From a virus, in the IMG/VR virus record IMGVR_UViG_3300044691_000116, positions 1 through 64,000 of that record: a DNA stretch of 64,000 bases. One strand, 5' to 3'. Below, in pieces: positions 1-16,366 of this stretch (its first letter is position 1; each line of letters begins with the position of its first letter). Under the pieces are notes generated by a model. It did not search any database. It had not been told where the DNA came from and worked only from the letters and a program-made list of their open reading frames with translations. The position numbers and the translations under genes are program-made.

Positions 1-1
1 C

Positions 2-199
2 ACGCGCCAGGAAGCGGCGCTCATCTTCGCGAACTGCCGCCCGCACGTCGATCCCCTGTGGCACTGGACGAGCGAAGAGCACGAATCGAACGACTCGTGT
101 GCCTGGGATTGCCACTTCAGCAACGGCTGCCAGGTCAACGGCAGCAAGTCCTCCGAGGGCAGCGCCCGAGCCGTCCGCTTGATTCACATCACCGACTGA
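2..199 (+). CDS. DGR target protein 1, C-terminal fragment (DUF1566/Lcl-like, carries VR1)
   Basis: The reading frame is open from the left edge, so only the last 65 residues are present. The fragment contains the WHWTSEE segment and the AW-x-C-x-F ... K-S-S-E-G-S-A-R-A-V-R ending typical of DUF1566/Lcl C-terminal domains, which adopt a C-type-lectin-like fold. Variable repeat VR1 covers almost the whole C-terminal end. The DNA from 1 to 88 is identical to 504-591 in the next gene, so the two genes are recent tandem duplicates that differ only inside VR and after it. The final residues (after the conserved VR end) differ from the second copy. Inferred role: a surface-exposed variable protein diversified by the adjacent retroelement; its ligand is unknown. 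Confidence 0.85.
   Translation, partial: TRQEAALIFANCRPHVDPLWHWTSEEHESNDSCAWDCHFSNGCQVNGSKSSEGSARAVRLIHITD
89..178 (+). repeat. VR1: DGR variable repeat VR1
   Basis: These 90 bases align without gaps to TR 1264-1353. They differ at nine positions (99, 107, 113, 120, 129, 135, 140, 141, 144), and every one corresponds to an adenine in TR. The last 34 bases are identical to TR despite containing adenines, as expected for the 3' initiation-of-mutagenic-homing (IMH) segment. The substitutions change codons for Tyr, Asn and Asp in TR to Cys, Asp, His, Ser, Cys, Val, Gly and Ser. Confidence 0.95.
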
Positions 200-218
200 A
201 TCCTTCAATCCTTCAGTC
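194..218 (+). other. Hairpin just downstream of VR1
   Basis: A 7-bp perfect inverted repeat (GACTGAA/TTCAGTC) with an 11-nt loop begins 16 bases past VR1 and overlaps the target stop codon. DGRs such as that of Bordetella phage BPP-1 have a DNA hairpin at this place that promotes homing. The match here is positional; function is inferred. Confidence 0.45.
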
Positions 219-237
219 CACTCGAGGAGATGACCCA

Positions 238-696
238 ATGACCGAAATCACGCTGCAGGCCGTTCGCGCCAAGCAGACCGAGTTGGCGACCATGATCGCC
301 GCCCTGATGAACCAGACCGCGACGACGGTCTCCGTCGACGCGATCGACATCGAGCTGCGCGACGGCGAGCACTACGCCGGCGCCGTCCTGAACGATGACG
401 GCACGATCAAGCACCACCTGGTGCTGATGGCCGAGAAGCCGGACGAGATGCTGCCGTGGGCGCGCGCCATGGTCTGGGCCGATAGCGTTGGTGGCTTGCT
501 GCCCACGCGCCAGGAAGCGGCGCTCATCTTCGCGAACTGCCGCCCGCACGTCGATCCCCTGTGGCACTGGACGAGCGAAGAGCACGAATCGAACGACTCG
601 TGTGCCTGGTATTGCTACTTCATCAACGGCTACCAGGACCTCAACTTCAAGTCCTCCGAGGGCAGCGCCCGAGCCGTCCGCAGATTGACTTCGTAA
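238..696 (+). CDS. DGR target protein 2 (DUF1566/Lcl-like, carries VR2)
   Basis: This is a 152-residue protein. The start at 238 is chosen for the GAGGAGA ribosome site 8 bases upstream. Residues 1-85 form a conserved phage domain that includes the ELRDGEHYAGAVL segment. Residues 88-152 are the DUF1566/Lcl-like C-terminal domain, with WHWTSEE followed by the variable face AWYCYFINGYQDLNFK and the constant SSEGSARAVR end. I recognise small proteins of this type from many phage early regions, where the function is not established. Here the C-terminal domain is under DGR control. It is probably co-transcribed with avd and the RT. No signal peptide or membrane segment is visible, so it may act in the cytoplasm or be a minor virion part. 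Confidence 0.88.
   Translation: MTEITLQAVRAKQTELATMIAALMNQTATTVSVDAIDIELRDGEHYAGAVLNDDGTIKHHLVLMAEKPDEMLPWARAMVWADSVGGLLPTRQEAALIFANCRPHVDPLWHWTSEEHESNDSCAWYCYFINGYQDLNFKSSEGSARAVRRLTS
504..681 (+). repeat. Second copy of the 178-bp target-gene duplication (first copy 1-178)
   Basis: Bases 1-178 and 504-681 are identical except at positions within VR that correspond to TR adenines. This shows that the two target genes arose by tandem duplication and that mutagenic homing is the main force separating them. Confidence 0.9.
592..686 (+). repeat. VR2: DGR variable repeat VR2
   Basis: These 95 bases align without gaps to TR 1264-1358. There are eight differences (602, 610, 616, 623, 640, 641, 646, 647), all at TR adenines. 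Seven of the eight replacements are T or C; the exception is the G at 602. The 3' part is identical to TR through CGCAGATT, five bases longer than in VR1. VR1 and VR2 share only the A-to-G change at TR 1274. Confidence 0.95.
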
Positions 697-699
697 GTC
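687..699 (+). other. Short hairpin abutting VR2
   Basis: GACTT and AAGTC form a 5-bp inverted repeat with a 3-nt loop directly after VR2, across the stop codon. Its position matches the post-VR hairpin of other DGRs, but the stem is short. Confidence 0.3.
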
Positions 700-728
700 C
701 TTCGATCCTTTGAATTGAGTCCCGCCAC

Positions 729-1091
729 ATGGCCATCCACGACCAACTGCCTATCTACCGCACCGGCGTGCGCCTGCTCGCCCTTGCGGTCAGAGTGCAG
801 GAGCAAATGCCGCGCAGCATCAAACGCATCTTGGGCGAGAAGATCACCCACCATTGCGTTGAGATGCTCGACCTGATGGCGTTCGCCAACGCGACCCAGA
901 AAGGCGTGCGCGCCAGGCACATCCAGGCGCTGCTGTCGCGGCAGCGCGCGGTGACCGTGCTTCTGCGGGTCAGCCACGATAGCCGATACCTCTCACCCAA
1001 GCTGTGGGCCGAGTCTGTCGAGTTGCTTGGCAGCATCGGCAGCCAAGCCGGCGGGTGGCTCAAGTCCGCAAATAGGGCGCCTGCAGCATGA
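729..1091 (+). CDS. avd: DGR accessory variability determinant
   Basis: This 120-residue, mostly helical protein has the Avd family pattern: an N-terminal YRTGVRLLALAVR helix, the MPRSIKRILGEKI helix, and the C-terminal ELLGSIGSQAGGWLKS end. Avd forms a pentamer of four-helix bundles that binds the DGR reverse transcriptase and template RNA and is needed for mutagenic cDNA synthesis. It lies between VR2 and TR, as in the BPP-1 order. Its TGA stop overlaps the ATG at 1088 of the RT frame, which suggests translational coupling. Length is typical of the family. Confidence 0.93.
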   Translation: MAIHDQLPIYRTGVRLLALAVRVQEQMPRSIKRILGEKITHHCVEMLDLMAFANATQKGVRARHIQALLSRQRAVTVLLRVSHDSRYLSPKLWAESVELLGSIGSQAGGWLKSANRAPAA

Positions 1092-2449
1092 CGGTCAAGG
1101 CCCTCATGCCCGTGCGCAATGTGAATCTGGTTGCGCCCCTCGCCTACCCGGCGACGGACATGCACACCACAGATACCGTCGCCTCTGTGCGGGCCGCGTC
1201 TGGTGCAGCTATCGACCTGATCGGCGCAAGCCTTCGGGTCGACGGCCTTGAAAGCGCGACAACAACGACTCGTATGCCTGGAATTGCAACTTCAACAACG
1301 GCTACCAGGACAACAACAACAAGTCCTCCGAGGGCAGCGCCCGAGCCGTCCGCAGATTCCAACCTGTTTCCCCTGCTCGTCGAGGCGTACCTCGATTGCC
1401 GGCGCACGAAGCGCAACAGCGCCAGCGCGCTCGCATTCGAGGCCCACCTCGAAAGCAACCTGTGTGACCTGCACGACGATCTGGTCTCTGGCGCCTACCG
1501 GCCTGGGCGATCGACGTGCTTCGTCACGCTGCGCCCCAAGCCACGCGAGATCTGGGCGGCCGGCTTCCGCGATCGGGTGGTCCATCACCTGCTCCACAAC
1601 CGGATCTCGCCCACCTTCTACCGGTCGTTCACGGCTGACACCTGTGCCTGCATCCCGGGCCGCGGCACGCTGTACGCCGCTCGTCGCCTCGAGGCACAGG
1701 TGCGCAGCCTCACCGAGAACTGGTCGCGGCCGGCGTACTACCTGAAGTGCGACCTGTCGAATTTCTTCGTTGCGATCGACAAGTACGTGTTGCGCGAGCA
1801 GCTGCTGCCGCGCATCGAGGGCGCCTGGTGGCAGGACCTCTCCGAGACGGTGCTGTTCCACGACCCGCGCGGTGACGTCGAAGTGCGCTCGCCGGCGGCC
1901 GTCATGCGCCTGGTGCCACCGCACAAGAGCCTGTTCAATGCGCCGGCCGACACCGGCCTGCCGATCGGCAACTTGTCGTCGCAGTTCTTCGCAAACGTGC
2001 ACCTCGACGCGCTCGACCAGTTCGCCAAGCACCAGCTACGCGCGCCGCGGTACGTGCGCTACGTCGACGACTTCGTTTTCACGCACGAGTCGACCGAGGT
2101 TCTTAGCGGCTGGCTGCGCCAGGTCGACGCGTTCCTGCCATTGCGGCTCGGCGCTCACCTGAACCCACGCAAGACCGTGCTGCAGCCCATCGCCCGCGGC
2201 ATCGACTTCGTGGGCCACGTCATCCGTCCGTGGCACCGCACGCTGCGGGCGAACGCCCTGCCGAACGCCTTGCGCCGGCTCAGCGCAACGCCTGATGACA
2301 CGCTCTTCGAGACGCTGAACAGCTACTTCGGCATGTTCCGCCAGGCGCCGGCTAGCCATCACGTCCGCGCCCAGCTGGCCAACGCAGCCCGGAACCGCGG
2401 CTTCTGCGTCAACGGCTCGCTCACAAAAGTTTATCGAAAGACAGCATGA
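1088..2449 (+). CDS. DGR reverse transcriptase (start uncertain)
   Basis: The RT domain begins near base 1360 (SNLFPLLVEAYLDCRR) and is about 360 residues long, similar to Bordetella Brt. Motif A is CDLSNFFVAID, the class-specific motif is GLPIGNLSSQFFAN (DGR RTs have an SQ here), and the catalytic box is YVDDF at bases 2060-2074, residues 325-329 if counted from 1088. The enzyme copies TR RNA with errors at adenines, together with Avd. The frame is open back to an ATG at 1088 that overlaps the avd stop, so a 453-residue form would translate TR itself into a Thr/Pro-rich stretch. The only other ATG before the conserved domain is 1274, inside TR. Which start is used is not resolved. Confidence 0.93.
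   Translation: MTVKALMPVRNVNLVAPLAYPATDMHTTDTVASVRAASGAAIDLIGASLRVDGLESATTTTRMPGIATSTTATRTTTTSPPRAAPEPSADSNLFPLLVEAYLDCRRTKRNSASALAFEAHLESNLCDLHDDLVSGAYRPGRSTCFVTLRPKPREIWAAGFRDRVVHHLLHNRISPTFYRSFTADTCACIPGRGTLYAARRLEAQVRSLTENWSRPAYYLKCDLSNFFVAIDKYVLREQLLPRIEGAWWQDLSETVLFHDPRGDVEVRSPAAVMRLVPPHKSLFNAPADTGLPIGNLSSQFFANVHLDALDQFAKHQLRAPRYVRYVDDFVFTHESTEVLSGWLRQVDAFLPLRLGAHLNPRKTVLQPIARGIDFVGHVIRPWHRTLRANALPNALRRLSATPDDTLFETLNSYFGMFRQAPASHHVRAQLANAARNRGFCVNGSLTKVYRKTA
1264..1358 (+). repeat. TR: DGR template repeat TR (transcribed donor)
   Basis: The 95-bp donor lies between avd and the RT domain. Read in the VR frame it is rich in AAC/AAT/TAT/TAC/GAC codons, eight of them hit in at least one VR, the codon style that gives broad diversity when adenines are replaced. 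12 of its 23 adenines between 1264 and 1322 are substituted in at least one VR. No VR difference occurs at a non-adenine. The template RNA probably starts in the 1092-1263 spacer and runs into the RT gene; its ends cannot be seen from sequence. Confidence 0.95.
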
Positions 2450-2709
2450 CGCCGAAGTTCACCGCTCCCGCCATGGTCGGCCGCATGTCCCCGCCGCTGT
2501 TCTCGCAAGGCTGCCTCATGGAGCCGCACAACCCGCGCTTCGCCAGCTACCCCTTCGTAGCGGTGCGGTACTGGATGCATGCCGATGGCTGTCGCCCGGG
2601 ATCATTCAGCTCACGCCCGGCCAATCGGCAGCGCGGCCGAGAGTCCGACTGGTTTCTGTGCGCTCTTCCGCCAGTGCAGGCCGAACTTTTTCAAGGATGC
2701 CTAGCATGA
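2446..2709 (+). CDS. Hypothetical protein, 87 aa
   Basis: The ATG overlaps the RT stop (ATGA) and its own TGA overlaps the next ATG at 2706, so it sits in a coupled chain. No domain is recognised. There are no membrane segments; cysteines and prolines are frequent. It could be a non-coding spacer that happens to be open, but overlaps at both ends favour a real gene. Confidence 0.5.
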   Translation: MTPKFTAPAMVGRMSPPLFSQGCLMEPHNPRFASYPFVAVRYWMHADGCRPGSFSSRPANRQRGRESDWFLCALPPVQAELFQGCLA

Positions 2710-3104
2710 GCGCCACTCCCAAAGCCGACCGTATCAACGCAGTCGCGCTGACCATGCAAGGCGTGATGGCTGGGCTGGTCGACTTCTACGACGACGCCGT
2801 CGGCGCTGGTCAGCACAACATCGTCTTGATCGTCAACGCAGGCGACACGTCGCAATACGTTGCAAACACCGAACGGCCCCAGGCCATCGGAATGATGCAA
2901 GGCGTCCTCGCCCGCTGGTCGCTCGGGATGCCCGACACGATGCCGGGCGAAAGCGCTCCTGGCGACACGCGGGCCTTCGAGTATCTGTTGAACGAGTTCG
3001 TCGCCGAACTCAAGCGCAGCGGCACTGAGATGAACACGTCGCGCGCCAACCTCGTCGCGCACGCCGGCAGTCTGGTAGCTCAGGCCAATCGGAGGCGCGC
3101 ATGA
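2706..3104 (+). CDS. Hypothetical phage protein, 132 aa
   Basis: The start at 2706 is set by the ATGA overlap with the gene before it; an earlier in-frame ATG at 2658 lacks a ribosome site. The protein looks soluble and mixed alpha/beta, with NIVLIVNAGDTSQYV in the first half. I do not recognise the family. It is followed by a 4-base overlap with the next gene, so this is one transcription unit running toward int. Confidence 0.65.
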   Translation: MSATPKADRINAVALTMQGVMAGLVDFYDDAVGAGQHNIVLIVNAGDTSQYVANTERPQAIGMMQGVLARWSLGMPDTMPGESAPGDTRAFEYLLNEFVAELKRSGTEMNTSRANLVAHAGSLVAQANRRRA

Positions 3105-3397
3105 GATCCGGCCACACCTTCTATGGTCATGAGGCCGGCCGCGCATCCCGCGAACTCGGGCAAGCGCTCACCCAAGCCAACACGTTTCGCAGCCTGCTCG
3201 CCGAGACGGATGCCGCCTTGCGCGGGGCGTGGGTTGCTGGCCGCTTGCCCGCCGGGATCATCTCAAACGACTTGATCGAACGAACGCGCGCCGCACTTGC
3301 TGGCGAAGCAGTCCGACGCGAAACCTTGGAGGAGTCGGTCGATCGTCTATCAAAACTTCCCGGCGCAATCACACAACTCACGAAAGCCGGCCCGTGA
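3101..3397 (+). CDS. Hypothetical phage protein, 98 aa
   Basis: The start is set by the ATGA overlap with the preceding stop, and the end overlaps a GTG start. The protein is helical (GRASRELGQALTQANTFRSLLAE), and probably forms a coiled-coil or small bundle. No family is recognised. Confidence 0.65.
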   Translation: MRSGHTFYGHEAGRASRELGQALTQANTFRSLLAETDAALRGAWVAGRLPAGIISNDLIERTRAALAGEAVRRETLEESVDRLSKLPGAITQLTKAGP

Positions 3398-3624
3398 ACA
3401 TCAAATCCGCGCTCTGGCCTGTCCTGCTGGTCACTGCCATCGCCCTCGGCTGCCTGGGCGCAGAACTGCACCAGCAGGAGCACGACACGTGGATCCAGTT
3501 CCGCACCACTCACCGCTGCGTCGACATCGGCAAGACCTCACCGCCAGCCGGCATCAGCACAACGCCAGGCAAGACCGCGTGGCTCTGCGACGACCAACTG
3601 ATCCACGTGCACGACACCGAATAA
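3394..3624 (+). CDS. Small exported or membrane-anchored protein, 76 aa
   Basis: It starts with GTG overlapping the previous stop (GTGA). The N-terminus is a short basic end plus a hydrophobic stretch (LWPVLLVTAIALGCLGA), consistent with an uncleaved anchor or a signal peptide. The remainder has two cysteines that could form a disulfide in the periplasm. Family unknown. Confidence 0.6.
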   Translation: MNIKSALWPVLLVTAIALGCLGAELHQQEHDTWIQFRTTHRCVDIGKTSPPAGISTTPGKTAWLCDDQLIHVHDTE

Positions 3625-3648
3625 CTCCGGCATTCACGAAAGCAAATC

Positions 3649-4056
3649 ATGAAGACCATCCTCGCGACCCTCGCCCTCATCGCTCCGCTGCTGGCGAGTG
3701 CTGCAACCGTCGAGCCGACGCCTTGCTACAACTACCCGGCCACGCAAGTCAACTGCGTTCCCCTCGTGGTCGATGGCATCACGTCGGCGAACATGGTTCG
3801 CTATTCCACGTCGGCCGGGTCATTCCTTGCGATCACGTTGGACAACGTGGTCTATACGACGCTGCCGAGCGCCTGGGTCACGACGTCGGTGGCGACCGGC
3901 CCTTATGACGCGAACCAAAACTGGGTCGGTCAAGCGTACTCCGGTGCGGCGGTGCTGTCGTTCAACCTGAACATGCACACGAAGCGCGGCATCTGCTCGG
4001 GCCGCGGGTGCCGGACGCCCTACAGCTACTCCGTGCTGGGCGGCTCGCTGCAGTAA
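3649..4056 (+). CDS. Secreted hypothetical protein, 135 aa
   Basis: It has a clear signal peptide (MKTILATLALIAPLLASAA) with an AxA-type cleavage site around residue 19. The mature part is beta-rich with four or more cysteines, including a C-terminal RGICSGRGC pair, which suggests a disulfide-bonded periplasmic or secreted protein. A 24-base gap precedes it. Function unknown; it could alter the lysogen surface. Confidence 0.65.
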   Translation: MKTILATLALIAPLLASAATVEPTPCYNYPATQVNCVPLVVDGITSANMVRYSTSAGSFLAITLDNVVYTTLPSAWVTTSVATGPYDANQNWVGQAYSGAAVLSFNLNMHTKRGICSGRGCRTPYSYSVLGGSLQ

Positions 4057-4104
4057 CCCCCACCCCTCCCACCAGGGCATTTACTACGTCAACGAAAGAT
4101 TGAG

Positions 4105-4971
4105 ATGACCGAAACCACTCAAGCCGCACGCCAGGTGCAAATCGTCAGCCGCTGGAATTCGTCCCGTGTGCTGTTCTCGTTCGATGTGCCGGCAACGGTC
4201 GCGAGCGGAATGGAGACGCGAGCAGCGCTGGAGTCCGCTGTGGCTGGCGGCGCCAACCTGCGCGGCGCCGACCTGAGCGACGCCGACCTGAGCGACGCCA
4301 ACCTGCGCGGCGCCGACCTGAGCGACGCCGACCTGAGCGACGCCAACCTGCGCGGCGCCGACCTGCGCGGCGCCAACCTGCGCGACGCCGACCTGAGCGG
4401 CGCCGACCTGCGCGGCGCCAACCTGAGCGACGCCAACCTGCGCGGCGCCGACCTGCGCGACGCCGACCTGCGCGACGCCAACCTGCGCGGCGCCGACCTG
4501 CGCGGCGCCAACCTGAGCGACGCCAACCTGCGCGGCGCCGACCTGCGCGACGCCGACCTGCGCGACGCCGACCTGCGCGGCGCCGACCTGCGCGGCGCCG
4601 ACCTGCGCGACGCCGACCTGCGCGGCGCCGACCTGCGCGACGCCAACCTGAGCCCAATCAAGGCCGACTACTTCGACGTGCTGCTGCGCGCGCCGCGCGA
4701 GATTCCTGCTCTACGCGCCGCCTTGGTTGCCGGCAAGGTGGACGGCTCCTGCTACGAGGGCGCGTGCGCGTGCCTTGTGGGCACGATCGCCAATGCTCGC
4801 GGTGCGCAGTACGACGCGCTCGGCTCCGGTCTGGCGCCGAATTCGAGCCGACCCATCGAGAGCTTTTTCATGTCAATCACGAGCGGCGACACGCCGGAAA
4901 CGAATCAGGTGTCAAAGCTGGCTGTCGAATGGCTCGACGAGTTCGCCGGCTTGTTGTCTGCCGCCGCCTGA
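4105..4971 (+). CDS. Pentapeptide-repeat protein
   Basis: This 288-residue protein has residues about 50-182 made of about 27 units of the A-(D/N)-L-x-x pattern. These predict a right-handed quadrilateral beta-helix. Residues 1-49 and 183-288 are non-repetitive; the C-terminal part ([19 protein letters not shown]) appears on other phage pentapeptide proteins that I recall. Pentapeptide proteins such as Qnr/MfpA mimic DNA and bind gyrase, but that role is not shown here. No membrane segment is seen. Confidence 0.88.
4252..4650 (+). repeat. 15-bp tandem repeat array encoding pentapeptides
   Basis: A nearly perfect array of 15-base units alternates GCCGACCTG or GCCAACCTG with CGCGGC, CGCGAC, AGCGAC or AGCGGC. 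About 27 units lie in phase with the reading frame. The DNA-level identity among units shows recent expansion, and the array is likely to be length-variable. Confidence 0.9.
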
Positions 4972-4998
4972 CCCCACGGGGCTTTATAGGAGATTGAG

Positions 4999-5355
4999 AT
5001 GGGACGAGAGCTTTTCCGAGTGCCGATGGATTTCCCGATGAACCCAACAGACGGGCAGATTGCTTACCGGCAAGGTCGGCAGCTCGCGTACAAATCTGGG
5101 CGATGCAAGCCTCCGGCCGGCTACCAAATGTGGCAGACCGTCAGCGACAGGCCTTACTCGCCGGTCTTTGCGACCGCTGAGGAATTGGCCCGTTGGTGCT
5201 CACTCAATCCGTGGGGTGCCGAGCGCGATAACCCAGTCAGCTACGAGACGTGGCTTCGTTTCATCAACGGCCCCGGGTGGGCGCCTTCGATGATCGCCAC
5301 CAACGGCAACATGCAAACCGGCGTCCACGCCCTCGCTACCGGAGCAACGCAATGA
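4999..5355 (+). CDS. Hypothetical phage protein, 118 aa
   Basis: A good ribosome site (AGGAG) lies ahead of the ATG. The protein is soluble and contains GYQMWQTVSDRPYSPVF and many aromatic residues. It overlaps the next gene by 4 bases. I do not recognise the family beyond its being a common type of small early phage gene. Confidence 0.65.
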   Translation: MGRELFRVPMDFPMNPTDGQIAYRQGRQLAYKSGRCKPPAGYQMWQTVSDRPYSPVFATAEELARWCSLNPWGAERDNPVSYETWLRFINGPGWAPSMIATNGNMQTGVHALATGATQ

Positions 5356-13074: not shown

Positions 13075-13314
13075 ATGCTCTACGACCGCGCCCCCTCCTC
13101 CCCCGAGACCGGCCACCCCTGCTGGTACTGCCAGCACTACGGCGGCCCGGCCTGGGGCGACTCGAGCCTGGCGCTATGCAAGCGCGACGGTGAGCATTGC
13201 CGGTCGCAGGCTGAGCGCGGATGCGCGTACTTCGAACGCCTTCCCGGCGTCGACGATGATGGGTGGGAACCGGCGCCGATGGTCTACAAGCCGCTGAAGC
13301 CCATCAAGCGATGA
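13075..13314 (+). CDS. Small cysteine-rich phage protein, 79 aa
   Basis: The start chosen is the ATG at 13075; longer forms begin at 13027 or 13045 but run through the repeat region. It has HPCWYCQHYGG, then CKRDGEHC and a GCAYFER segment, a cysteine pattern that suggests zinc binding. I recall similar small proteins near phage attachment regions. Its stop overlaps the end of the convergent polymerase gene by 11 bases. Confidence 0.6.
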   Translation: MLYDRAPSSPETGHPCWYCQHYGGPAWGDSSLALCKRDGEHCRSQAERGCAYFERLPGVDDDGWEPAPMVYKPLKPIKR

Positions 13315-14515
13315 TGGCTGCCTTTGGCGGCGTTGCCGGCTTGCGCGTGTGGCCGTCGATCACGCGCTGCAGCAGGTTCAGCACGATCCCCGTGAACACG
13401 AGCTTGACCTGGATCTGGTACGGGTCGCGGAAGAAGATGAACGGCAGGATGCTGACCAGGAGGCAGTACAGCGCGCGGGAGTGCGGCGTTGTCGCCTTGA
13501 GGGCCGCGCGCCCCAAGAACGCGCCGACGGCACCGACGAACATCAGTCCACCGATGAACCCGAAATTTCCTATCGTGGCGACGATGATGCTTTGCGCGCC
13601 GAACGGCGACTGATATTCGGGGTAGAGGTCGGTCAACTGAACGATGTGGTCGACCTTGTCAGGCCAGATCGAGCTCGGGATTATGTTGACGAATGAGCTG
13701 ATGAACTCGCCGGGGAACGCGAACCAGTGCCAGTTGTCGCCGAGCACAAACGAGATCCCGGATATGTCCGTAAACAGCGGCTCGGCGAACAGGAAAAAAC
13801 CCAGGCCCGCGAGATCGAACGAACCCAGGCGCAGCATCCCGATCGCCGCGAACACCAGCGGCGCCACGACGATCCACTTGATAATGCGCAACCGATCTTT
13901 TCGTGTGCGCGCGACCCATTTCCAGCGATGGAAAATCACCGCTGCGAACGTCGACGCGACGTAGATCCGGCCGCCCATACTCAGGAGCGCCAACGAGGAC
14001 ACCAGCAACAGCAGGCCGAAGGCGAGCGAGTATCTGCGAAGGGCTGCCTCTTTGCACGCGATGTACTGATAGAGCAGAACCATTTCGAGGGTCGCGATCG
14101 GGCCCATGAGGCTTGGATCGACGCCGCCCACGTAACCGCCGAACAGGAGCTCGCGCGCCTGGAGCGCAAACGTGAGTAGCAGGAGCACATAGATCGGAAG
14201 AAGGAGCTTGCTCGAAAAGCGCGGCCGCACACCCGTACGAAAGGGCCTGGACTTGAACTGGCGTGCGACCCAGTTGCCCGCGATGTAGCAGGCCGGCAGC
14301 AACAACACGTAGGCCGCCAGTGCGTACCATCGGGCAGTGCGGAGGTCGAACTGATCGGCAAATGGCGCCGCCTGGTCGACGAGCGCGAACAGGTTGAAGT
14401 ACCCGGCAGCCATCGGCAGCCCCAGGTAGTAGACCCAGCCGATCAGGAACATATGGACGTGGGACAGCTTGCTCGGACTGGGGGTCATCGGCGGCTCGTG
14501 AATATCGAGCCGCAT
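13304..14515 (-). CDS. O-antigen/oligosaccharide polymerase-like membrane protein
   Basis: This protein of about 403 residues has roughly ten to twelve hydrophobic segments and a large periplasmic loop between about residues 250 and 330, the layout of Wzy-type O-antigen polymerases and related oligosaccharide-repeat-unit polymerases. The start is 14515 (MRLDIHEPP) or 14488 (MTPSPSKL). Wzy joins lipid-linked sugar repeats at the periplasmic face. In Pseudomonas phage D3, a phage wzy changes the lysogen serotype, and the same role is proposed here. It sits at the end of the late arm, behind two hairpins, so it is probably expressed separately as cargo. Confidence 0.72.
   Translation of the reverse strand: MRLDIHEPPMTPSPSKLSHVHMFLIGWVYYLGLPMAAGYFNLFALVDQAAPFADQFDLRTARWYALAAYVLLLPACYIAGNWVARQFKSRPFRTGVRPRFSSKLLLPIYVLLLLTFALQARELLFGGYVGGVDPSLMGPIATLEMVLLYQYIACKEAALRRYSLAFGLLLLVSSLALLSMGGRIYVASTFAAVIFHRWKWVARTRKDRLRIIKWIVVAPLVFAAIGMLRLGSFDLAGLGFFLFAEPLFTDISGISFVLGDNWHWFAFPGEFISSFVNIIPSSIWPDKVDHIVQLTDLYPEYQSPFGAQSIIVATIGNFGFIGGLMFVGAVGAFLGRAALKATTPHSRALYCLLVSILPFIFFRDPYQIQVKLVFTGIVLNLLQRVIDGHTRKPATPPKAAIIA
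14491..14513 (-). other. Hairpin across the polymerase start region
   Basis: GCGGCTCG and CGAGCCGC form an 8-bp perfect inverted repeat with a 7-nt loop. It lies between the two possible start codons (14515 and 14488), so folding in mRNA could affect which start is used. Confidence 0.4.
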
Positions 14516-14541
14516 TCTCGCATCCCGCCTGAGGTCAAAAT

Positions 14542-14579
14542 CCCCGCCGGCCGTGCAGGCGCCTGCAGCACCGGCGGGG
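14542..14579 (-). terminator. Strong inverted repeat with T-tract upstream of the polymerase gene
   Basis: CCCCGCCGG/CCGGCGGGG arms (9 bp) enclose a perfect 14-bp palindrome at 14554-14567. On the minus strand the hairpin is followed by ATTTTG. It can act as an intrinsic terminator ending late transcription, or as a regulator-binding palindrome. Confidence 0.55.
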
Positions 14580-14622
14580 CCACCCCAACGAAACGATCCC
14601 TGACACGAGCCCCAAAACGCAG

Positions 14623-14657
14623 AAAACCGCCCGACCGGCGCTAGGCCAGTCGGGCGG
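14623..14657 (-). terminator. Intrinsic terminator, end of late operon
   Basis: CCGCCCGAC/GTCGGGCGG forms a 9-bp stem with a 13-nt loop, followed on the minus strand by TTTT. It lies downstream of the last lysis-side gene (stop at 14826) and ahead of the polymerase gene. Confidence 0.65.
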
Positions 14658-14671
14658 ATGATCTGTGGATA

Positions 14672-14704
14672 ACCTGTTGACAGGTTATGTGGGTAACTTA
14701 CAAT
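14672..14704 (+). promoter_or_regulatory. Sigma70-type promoter with overlapping palindrome
   Basis: TTGACA at 14677-14682 and TACAAT at 14699-14704 are separated by 16 bases, near-consensus for both boxes. A perfect 9-bp inverted repeat (ATAACCTGT, TG, ACAGGTTAT) at 14669-14688 covers the -35 box and could be an operator. No protein gene lies on the + strand downstream before a terminator about 95 bases later. Confidence 0.6.
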
Positions 14705-14710
14705 GCGCGC

Positions 14711-14826
14711 ATCGTAGTCGGGAACTCTGACACGCGGGGGCTGCCAGGATGCGCATCCTGGAGAGTTGGCGTTGCGCCCCCTCCGACACGCGAAGAGGGC
14801 CGCCGTGCATGGCGGCCTTCGGTTTT
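14711..14826 (+). ncRNA. Candidate small RNA of about 115 nt
   Basis: This is the segment between a near-consensus promoter and a + strand intrinsic terminator. It can fold into an outer GGGGGC/GCCCCC stem (14736-14741 with 14776-14781) enclosing CCAGGAT/ATCCTGG (14744-14761, GCGC loop), then the terminator hairpin. No + strand reading frame of note starts here. An RNA of this size in a phage junction could act on host or phage mRNAs; this is inference. Confidence 0.45.
14797..14826 (+). terminator. Intrinsic terminator (+ strand)
   Basis: GGCCGCC/GGCGGCC stem of 7 bp with a GTGCAT loop, followed by TTCGGTTTT on the + strand. It ends the candidate small RNA; the minus-strand side has no T-tract. 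Confidence 0.6.
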
Positions 14827-15083
14827 CAGGGCCGCCGCGACAGCCTTCCGTGCAGCCACATCCCGGCCATCGCACCCAGGCCGGCACCGAACCCGATCGG
14901 CAGCACAATCCAGCCCCACCCGCGCGTCGCCGCCTGCCAAGTGACGTACACCTCGCAGACGGCCATCGCAAGCGACGTCGGCAACACCCACAGATACTTG
15001 CCGCTCGAGACGTTGAGTTGCTGAAACGATTTGAGCAGCACGAAGACGAAGGCGGACGAGAAGGCCAGGGCGAACAGCATCAT
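14826..15083 (-). CDS. Small inner-membrane phage protein, 85 aa
   Basis: The start is the first of two ATG codons at 15083. Two or three hydrophobic segments (FALAFSSAFVFVLL, YLWVLPTSLAMAVC, WIVLPIGFGAGLGAMAGMW) predict a membrane protein. I recall similar proteins in phage genomes next to DUF5664 genes; function is unknown. It overlaps the next upstream gene by 4 bases. Confidence 0.7.
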   Translation of the reverse strand: MMLFALAFSSAFVFVLLKSFQQLNVSSGKYLWVLPTSLAMAVCEVYVTWQAATRGWGWIVLPIGFGAGLGAMAGMWLHGRLSRRP

Positions 15084-15460: not shown

Positions 15461-16366
15461 GCGGGCTTTCCGTGGTGGCTGCGCGCTTGCGCGCGATGGC
15501 GGCTTTCATCGACGCGGACCGCTTGGTGCGGGTTTCTAGAGAGATGTTGGCTGCTCGCTCTGCGCAAGCGCGTCGCTGCTCAACCGACAAGGGTTCGCGC
15601 GGGCGCCGGTTTGCGGCGGCATTTCGGGCGCGCCATTCAGGGTCTTGGGCGCGCCTCTCGGCCGCGTCCTTCATGTGGCGCCGCGATTCTGCAGAGAGTG
15701 GCCCGCGCGAATTCCGTGCCGCTACCAACCTCTCGCGCACTTCCGGGCGCATAAGGCCTTCATATCGCTTGGCAACCATCTCGGGGTGCTTTGCACGGTC
15801 GGACGCGGCGCGGCGGTACTCTTCAGCATCAGCCGACTGCCAGAAAGCAGACGTGCTTTCCGAAGTCTTTTGGCGAACTTCCGGCCTGCGCAGCACTGCG
15901 GTGCGTCTGGCGTGCATCGAAGGGCCCGCACAGCCGCCAGGAAGTTCGCGATACGCTCCGGGTCTTGGTGGCGCTCCAACATCATCTGGCGACGTGCGGC
16001 TTGGATGATGGGGTTGGCCGCCATCGCAAGCGCCCTTTGGCGCGTTGCCTCTCGCAACCGTTCCGAGACCACCACCCCAGGAGCGCCCCTACCGCCGCGC
16101 GTCTTGTTCACGAGTGAAACTCCCTCGGCGCCAAGGGCCGCTATCCACTCCCCTTCCGCCGCATATGCATCATCTTCCGCGTCAAAGTACGCGACGATCT
16201 CCGCATCGAAGCGCCCCTTATTCTTGAGGACAACGCTGTTCCAGTGGGCTCCGCGGCCGACACCGCTACGAGCGCGGTTGCCGCTGCCCTTGCCGACGTA
16301 GAAGACGGCGCCAGTGTCCGGACGGCGATGGATATAGACGTAGAACTTAGAATGGCGATCAGCCAT
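15453..16366 (-). pseudogene. GIY-YIG homing endonuclease, split by a frameshift
   Basis: The first frame (16366-15722) has a GIY-YIG nuclease domain at residues 8-75: YVYIH and FYVGKG for GIY and YIG, the catalytic Arg in NRARSG, and a Glu in AAEGEW. It then runs into NUMOD-like DNA-binding helices. Near 15917-15930 the NUMOD pattern stops in that frame and continues in a second frame (15917-15453, starting HARRTAVLRRPEV), with further repeats such as RPEVRERL and SAESRRHM. A one- or two-base shift would join them into about 300 residues. It is either a decayed free-standing homing endonuclease or a sequence error; a programmed shift is less likely. Confidence 0.75.

Follow-up and report, generated by a model that had tools for sequence, protein, structure and literature searches.

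Is the cassette at the left end of the virus record IMGVR_UViG_3300044691_000116 a genuine and working diversity-generating retroelement (DGR), and, if so, which RNA would serve its reverse transcriptase (RT) when the template repeat (TR) lies almost against the conserved RT core? To answer this we analyzed a window that covers record positions 1 to 64,000 (total length 73,233 nt); position 1 of the window is a contig edge that cuts the first target gene inside. According to our analysis, the locus is most probably a working DGR of a temperate phage, which belongs to a clade of Pseudomonas and Burkholderiales phages and prophages and acts through the mechanism proposed below; we assign this reading a probability of roughly 0.85. 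The cassette consists of the following features, in which VR stands for variable repeat:

1–199, plus strand: 3' remainder of a target gene truncated at the contig start, with a B-type head (1–106 identical to 504–609) and an A-type tail (144–270 identical to record 73107–73233); holds VR1
89–178, plus strand: VR1, 9 differences from the TR, all at adenines (TR/VR alignment)
144–270, plus strand: 127-nt exact overlap with the right end of the record, closing the circle (sequence identity)
238–696, plus strand: target gene B, a 152-aa C-type-lectin-fold protein with an N-terminal helix and VR2 near the C terminus (Lcl_C, AlphaFold, PDB match)
592–686, plus strand: VR2, 8 differences from the TR, all at adenines (TR/VR alignment)
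729–1091, plus strand: avd, accessory variability determinant, 120 aa (PF22296, E 1.2e-10; phrog_3206, E 2.7e-22)
1088–2449, plus strand: RT open frame, starting in an ATGA overlap with the avd stop and spanning RT-15 and the TR, with the conserved RT core from about 1370 (open reading frame, family matches)
1264–1358, plus strand: TR (TR/VR alignment)

A first-pass annotation had counted 9 differences in VR1 and 8 in VR2, all at TR adenines, and our recount agrees. Compared in register across their common 90-nt block, which contains 26 TR adenines, the two repeats differ from the TR at 17 positions, every one of them a TR adenine (9/9 and 8/8) and all in codon position 1 or 2; the hypergeometric chance of adenine-only differences is 4e-6 for VR1 and 2e-5 for VR2. 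A further repeat, VR0, at the right end of the record, adds 13/13 differences at adenines, which gives a total of 30/30 with zero elsewhere. The non-adenine differences that had been named as the outcome contrary to a DGR were found in none of the three repeats, and the 3' constant segment common to the TR and the VRs is also present, with a length of 33 nt (AAGTCC..GTCCGC).

The proteins lead to the same assignment. The RT domain matched PF00078 above the cut-off and contains the expected class motifs of the IGxxxSQ and Y(V/M)DD types, here IGNLSSQ and YVDD. It matched PHROG 1423 (E 5e-103) and BPP-1 brt (E 1e-32; 30% identity over 89%), and its best PDB match was 8ub7 (E 1.3e-33), an entry labeled "reverse transcriptase" which we take to be a DGR RT. 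The nearest relatives are thus DGR RTs, the class being assigned from motifs and matches and not from a tree, and the possibility that the enzyme falls outside this class did not hold. The identification of Avd stands as well, with matches to PF22296 and phrog_3206 ("Avd protein of DGR"), and to NCBIfam NF033474 only under the cut-off. A reading of the enzyme as a defense RT was rejected, since its PADLOC matches were RT-family matches to many unrelated groups. By every testable feature of membership that its sequence offers, the element is a genuine DGR.

The earlier description of a complete element with two targets requires a correction: TR, avd, RT, and VRs are located where they had been placed, but the element is not complete within the window, as the first target is cut by the contig start and its intact copy lies at the far end of the record. 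This intact gene (A, record 72755–73162) carries VR0. Since the last 127 nt of the record exactly repeat window positions 144–270, apparently as a k-mer overlap left by assembly, the record closes as a circle (about 72,963 bp). In IMG/VR it is classed as linear, its circularity being masked because the contig begins within a variable VR. An exact scan of viral contigs for the VR 3' constant segment gave no match, so there were no sister contigs of the same phage for comparison.

On the upstream side of VR1 the sequence is that of gene B, and on the downstream side 127 nt are identical to gene A. Such a gene-B head with a gene-A tail is the exact outcome of a crossover within the 33-nt constant segment, and VR1 could be a real third target if unequal crossing-over between the VRs of A and B had produced an array A – B/A hybrid – B; the adenine changes of VR1 form a set of their own, and some relatives possess three targets. 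We regard this as doubtful, though by no means negligible. The closest relatives (L004, L072, and L005) have two targets ahead of avd, L004 and L072 keeping the same 38-nt spacing between A and B as here, and VR1 and VR2 diverge 106 nt after the contig start, a distance short of the 127-nt k-mer length, which looks like a low-support dead-end path. The simplest reading is probably that of two targets, A (with VR0) and B (with VR2), VR1 being a minor recombinant variant or an assembly chimera; VR1 as an ordinary intact target was set aside on the contig-edge evidence.

For the question of activity, 80 relatives were taken from viral contigs, which made 85 loci with five cultured phages added. 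Their hosts are Pseudomonas and Burkholderiales, with a few others. Two VRs were counted in 64/78 clade loci and three in 10/78, the flanks limiting the count. Over the 85 loci, 2172/2285 TR/VR differences are at adenines, a share biased upward by the admission of TR/VR pairs only if at least 70% of their differences were at adenines. Three pairs of loci are near-clones. Between L053 and L054 (4.18 kb) there are 14 differences, confined to one VR and each at a TR adenine, of which the aligner rendered four as gaps; L004 and L072 (4.58 kb) show four, also in one VR, with 3/4 at TR adenines; L006 and L007 show two, both within a VR and 0/2 at TR adenines. In total, 20/20 differences fall inside the VRs, which make up about 5% of the length, and 17/20 are at TR adenines, while the TR is invariant. 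A variable VR with a constant TR between individuals was found in these three pairs of relatives only, and the other near-identical sets (L008/L009 and L021/L023/L026) had zero VR differences. Against adenine-directed change count one of the four VR differences between L004 and L072 and both of those between L006 and L007, which are off TR adenines. The VR-only divergence of natural near-clones shows that the DGRs of this clade are active. The earlier suggestion of an active or recently active system is therefore upheld at the clade level, and for the present phage itself we infer the same.

It is very improbable that the locus represents a decayed or inactive remnant, as the open reading frames are all intact, the catalytic motifs are present, there is no non-adenine drift between TR and VRs, and the relatives diverge in their VRs only. 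Nothing speaks directly for such decay; the nearest hint comes from the close relative L072, which is without the C-terminal half of its RT owing to a deletion or an assembly error. Although L072 and L004 share 99.9% identity, only half of the RT is left in L072, where it runs into sequence that lies 3.4 kb farther along; the 127 nt shared at this junction (L072 4579–4705, L004 7945–8071) suggest a true deletion or else a join made in assembly.

With the DGR established, the nature of its RNA can be considered. The following features lie around the TR:

1075–1266, plus strand: RT-15 structured RNA (RF03018), the proposed DGR RNA scaffold (156.5 bits against a gathering threshold of 82, model positions 1–192 of 192; covariation)
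1123–1129, plus strand: 5' strand of a helix that we call H, GAATCTG (covariation, folding)
1353–1359, plus strand: 3' strand of helix H, CAGATTC, at the TR 3' end (covariation)

The full-length RT-15 match, above the Rfam gathering threshold, ends at the 5' edge of the TR. RT-15 occupied this position in 28/28 of the viral-contig or phage clade loci tested and in 15/15 of the bacterial-genome loci tested, some of which duplicate viral loci. The RT frame is open over at least the 3' part of the TR in every clade member, so the TR overlaps the RT coding sequence; most members have start codons in the TR or further upstream. No structured RNA of the BPP-1 type was found between the TR and the RT: RF03022, the 3' spacer RNA of that type, gave no match at E 1 or better in window positions 1–5000. 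The predicted architecture of the DGR RNA is not that of BPP-1.

Within RT-15, the segment GAAUCUG (1123–1129) is nearly invariant and unpaired in the Rfam model, and the conserved 3' end of the TR, CAGAUUC (1353–1359), is its reverse complement. The near-invariance of AATCTG first drew the eye to this pairing, helix H, which was then tested. Across 30 diverse sequences, 91.4% of cells pair, and the covariation score is 0.165 versus 0.036 for shuffled data, a value that 0/500 shuffles reach; sliding the partner by 1–3 nt lowers the pairing to 14–52%. The outer pair occurs as GC, CG, UA, and AU, another pair as UA and CG, and another as AU and UA. A permutation test on 72 loci agrees, and helix H is contained in both the minimum-energy and the centroid structures of an unconstrained fold of the window RNA. 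Taken together, RT-15 and helix H reach 95.6% pairing, with two-sided changes in 36/55 pairs. The helix would enclose the RT-15 core and the entire TR, bringing the TR 3' end beside the scaffold.

Several observations weigh against this structure. Some clade members form helix H imperfectly, pair 51/324 being broken in 8/30 sequences; several relatives do not favor it when folded alone; RNAalifold alone did not report it; and RT-15 overlaps the end of avd and the RT frame, so part of its conservation may be coding. The same overlap with avd, together with its leader-like position ahead of the RT, would suit a regulatory RNA for RT translation instead of a priming scaffold, in which case the priming RNA would be hidden 3' of the TR inside the RT gene as a BPP-1-like spacer. 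The BPP-1 spacer does lie 3' of the TR (PMC12875486), and a weak consensus pairing was predicted between the TR and the RT coding sequence (columns 265–268 with 392–395). We nevertheless consider such an arrangement unlikely: in the clade only 14–53 nt separate the TR from the conserved RT core (about 14 nt here, about 200 nt in BPP-1), no Rfam DGR RNA was found 3' of the TR, and the covarying helix H links RT-15 to the TR 3' end.

Outside the clade, upstream complementarity in 3'-spacer or distant DGRs was mostly at the level of chance. Three loci, L116 and L125 (Bacteroides phages F2 and F4) and L126, whose RTs are just 30–36% identical and whose TR is also close to the RT, have an upstream GTTATCTG complementary to CAGATAAC at the TR 3' end, resembling helix H; with p about 0.07 per sequence this is a lead only.

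Under the scaffold reading of RT-15, we propose that one RNA, comprising the avd end, RT-15, the TR, and the RT start, would be bound by RT and Avd, with RT-15 serving as scaffold. Helix H would hold the TR 3' end at this scaffold, and cDNA synthesis would start just inside the helix; the TR/VR0 homology stops exactly at 1353, the first base of its 3' strand. The RT would misread template adenines, and the mutated cDNA would replace the VRs in both target genes, A and B. In the two target proteins, which are small and soluble, the varied residues would sit on the lectin fold.

How the recipients may be told apart from the template is suggested by the sequences that follow the VRs:

196–219, plus strand: 8-nt repeats CTGAATCC TTCAATCC TTCAGTCC after the VR, in the tail of gene A (repeat pattern)
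693–722, plus strand: 8-nt repeats after VR2, around TTCGATCC (repeat pattern)

A run of TTCAATCC-like 8-nt units follows the VRs and never the TR. Two units 8 nt apart were found downstream of 98/131 VRs and 0/62 TRs, compared with 17/2620 shuffles, and an autocorrelation free of any pattern has a peak at lag 8. In bacterial-genome loci, with the pattern fixed beforehand, the counts were 33/43 for VRs, 0/19 for TRs, and 17/2150 for shuffles. These counts are weakened by the facts that the octamer pattern was devised after inspection of the data and that some bacterial loci duplicate viral ones. The stems in this region (7 bp with an 11-nt loop after VR0, 5 bp with a 3-nt loop after VR2) have no GRNA loop; after VRs they average 5.2 bp versus 4.2 bp in shuffled sequences, the TR behaving like the shuffled ones. 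A BPP-1-type hairpin as recipient mark was not convincing, the stems being only modestly longer than in shuffled sequences. We propose that the repeats, or a stem there, may mark the VRs as recipients.

The targets themselves are probably small soluble binding proteins with a lectin fold. The gene B protein matched Lcl_C with E 5e-5, under the Pfam cut-off; its AlphaFold model (pLDDT 95) shows an N-terminal helix followed by a C-type-lectin fold, with the VR near the C terminus, and is nearest in the PDB to 8q4e (the C-terminal domain of Legionella Lcl) and also near phage DUF1566 proteins. Across the clade, the targets are mostly single-domain, typically of 125–230 aa, and usually in tandem pairs. 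The N-terminal helix (ITLEQIEADHARIGALI-like; window 238–310) recurs in the gene B proteins of the phage and its relatives, and is absent from gene A of the phage; it is possibly an oligomerization or docking part.

The cassette lies on the plus strand between an exonuclease/recombination region (record about 69–72 kb) and genes for a DNA methyltransferase and an integrase (7.6–12.8 kb), whereas the head, tail sheath, baseplate, and tail genes occupy the opposite strand at about 19–43 kb. Phage Magia, with a sheath gene, and phages Cruim01 and Haboob, with none annotated, share the cassette away from the tail genes. As the cassette is located outside the tail modules in phages of different tail types, the targets need not be tail fibers. 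They could still be virion receptor-binding proteins coded away from the tail cluster, which would provide classic tropism switching: the lectin fold is the usual receptor-binding scaffold of DGRs, and viral DGR targets are mostly annotated tail proteins (PMC8144416). We hold this to be a real possibility, though not the expected one, given that the targets are small single domains in which no tail-attachment part is evident, that the cassette occupies the early/integration region on the strand opposite to the tail genes, and that it is shared by phages that have a sheath gene and phages that do not, all of which have a tail-fiber or host-specificity gene of their own.

Some other features of these genomes were recorded. 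In the fetched flanks of five loci (L102, L104, L106, L107, and L065) there are tRNA or tmRNA genes, possible attachment sites. Window 4105–4971 encodes a pentapeptide-repeat protein by a tandem array of 15-nt units. On the minus strand, 13304–14971 encodes a large membrane-like protein, O-antigen-polymerase-like by eye and without a PHROG match, possibly a surface-modifying cargo, and 15722–16366 is a GIY-YIG-like endonuclease frame, also by eye, next to the half of the genome devoted to lysis and tail.

DGRs as such are well known, and possession of two targets is common among them. Two-target DGRs and DUF1566 targets have been described (PMC6642488, PMC10743442), and multi-VR cassettes (patterns G2/G4) were reported to cluster together (PMC6642488). 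With those cassettes and the two-target phage DGRs of PMC10743442 our element shares one TR for several VRs and DUF1566 targets; a tentaclin-type target is absent here. Closest among named phages are Burkholderia phage Magia (MT701587), Pseudomonas phage Cruim01, and Shewanella phage QDWS, which belong to the same clade (RT 64–66% identical) and share RT-15 (a misc_RNA in the Cruim01 annotation, found here in Magia and QDWS), Avd, two or three small lectin targets, and the early/integration region. They differ by sequence divergence and target number, Magia having a further target about 7 kb upstream; its GenBank annotation flags proteins as possible DGR targets.

The BPP-1 DGR (mtd-avd-TR-brt) has the same order of target with VR, avd, TR, and RT, the same adenine-directed change, and a C-type-lectin target. 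It differs in having RF03022 ("Phage_DGR") 3' of the TR, in a spacer of roughly 145 nt before brt, whereas here RT-15 lies 5' of a TR that abuts or overlaps the RT; in one tail-protein target beside the tail genes, against a pair of small lectins within the early region; and in a GC-rich hairpin with a GRNA tetraloop after the VR (PMC3240598), against octamer repeats. The Rfam RT-15 model (RF03018) stops at the TR edge and is without helix H. Another Rfam family, RT-14, was found 3' of the TR in Paenibacillus and BalMu-1 DGRs (L082, L114, L115, and L117), and this position makes it, too, look like a DGR RNA arranged as in BPP-1. We lean, with a modest degree of confidence, toward two DGR RNA architectures: one with an RT/Avd-binding structure 3' of the TR (BPP-1 and RT-14 types), and one with RT-15 as a "5'-scaffold" that uses helix H to capture the TR 3' end, with a TR overlapping the RT start, octamer-marked recipients, and small soluble lectin targets outside the tail module. 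The literature searched, in which that on RT-15 was only partly checkable, makes no mention of RF03018 or RT-15 together with DGRs. With caution, since the paper defining RT-15 lies outside it, the RT-15 5' scaffold, helix H, and the octamer mark appear undescribed in the literature examined.

In conclusion, the clade would offer a directly testable alternative to the BPP-1 DGR RNA and would give the Rfam orphan RT-15 a function as the scaffold of a DGR template RNA. It leads to two predictions: that a specific RNA helix positions the template 3' end, and that a cis-element distinguishes the recipient VR from the donor TR. In phages that differ in tail type, these DGRs diversify small lectins encoded away from the tail cluster, which raises the question of a use beyond tail-based host recognition in temperate phages.

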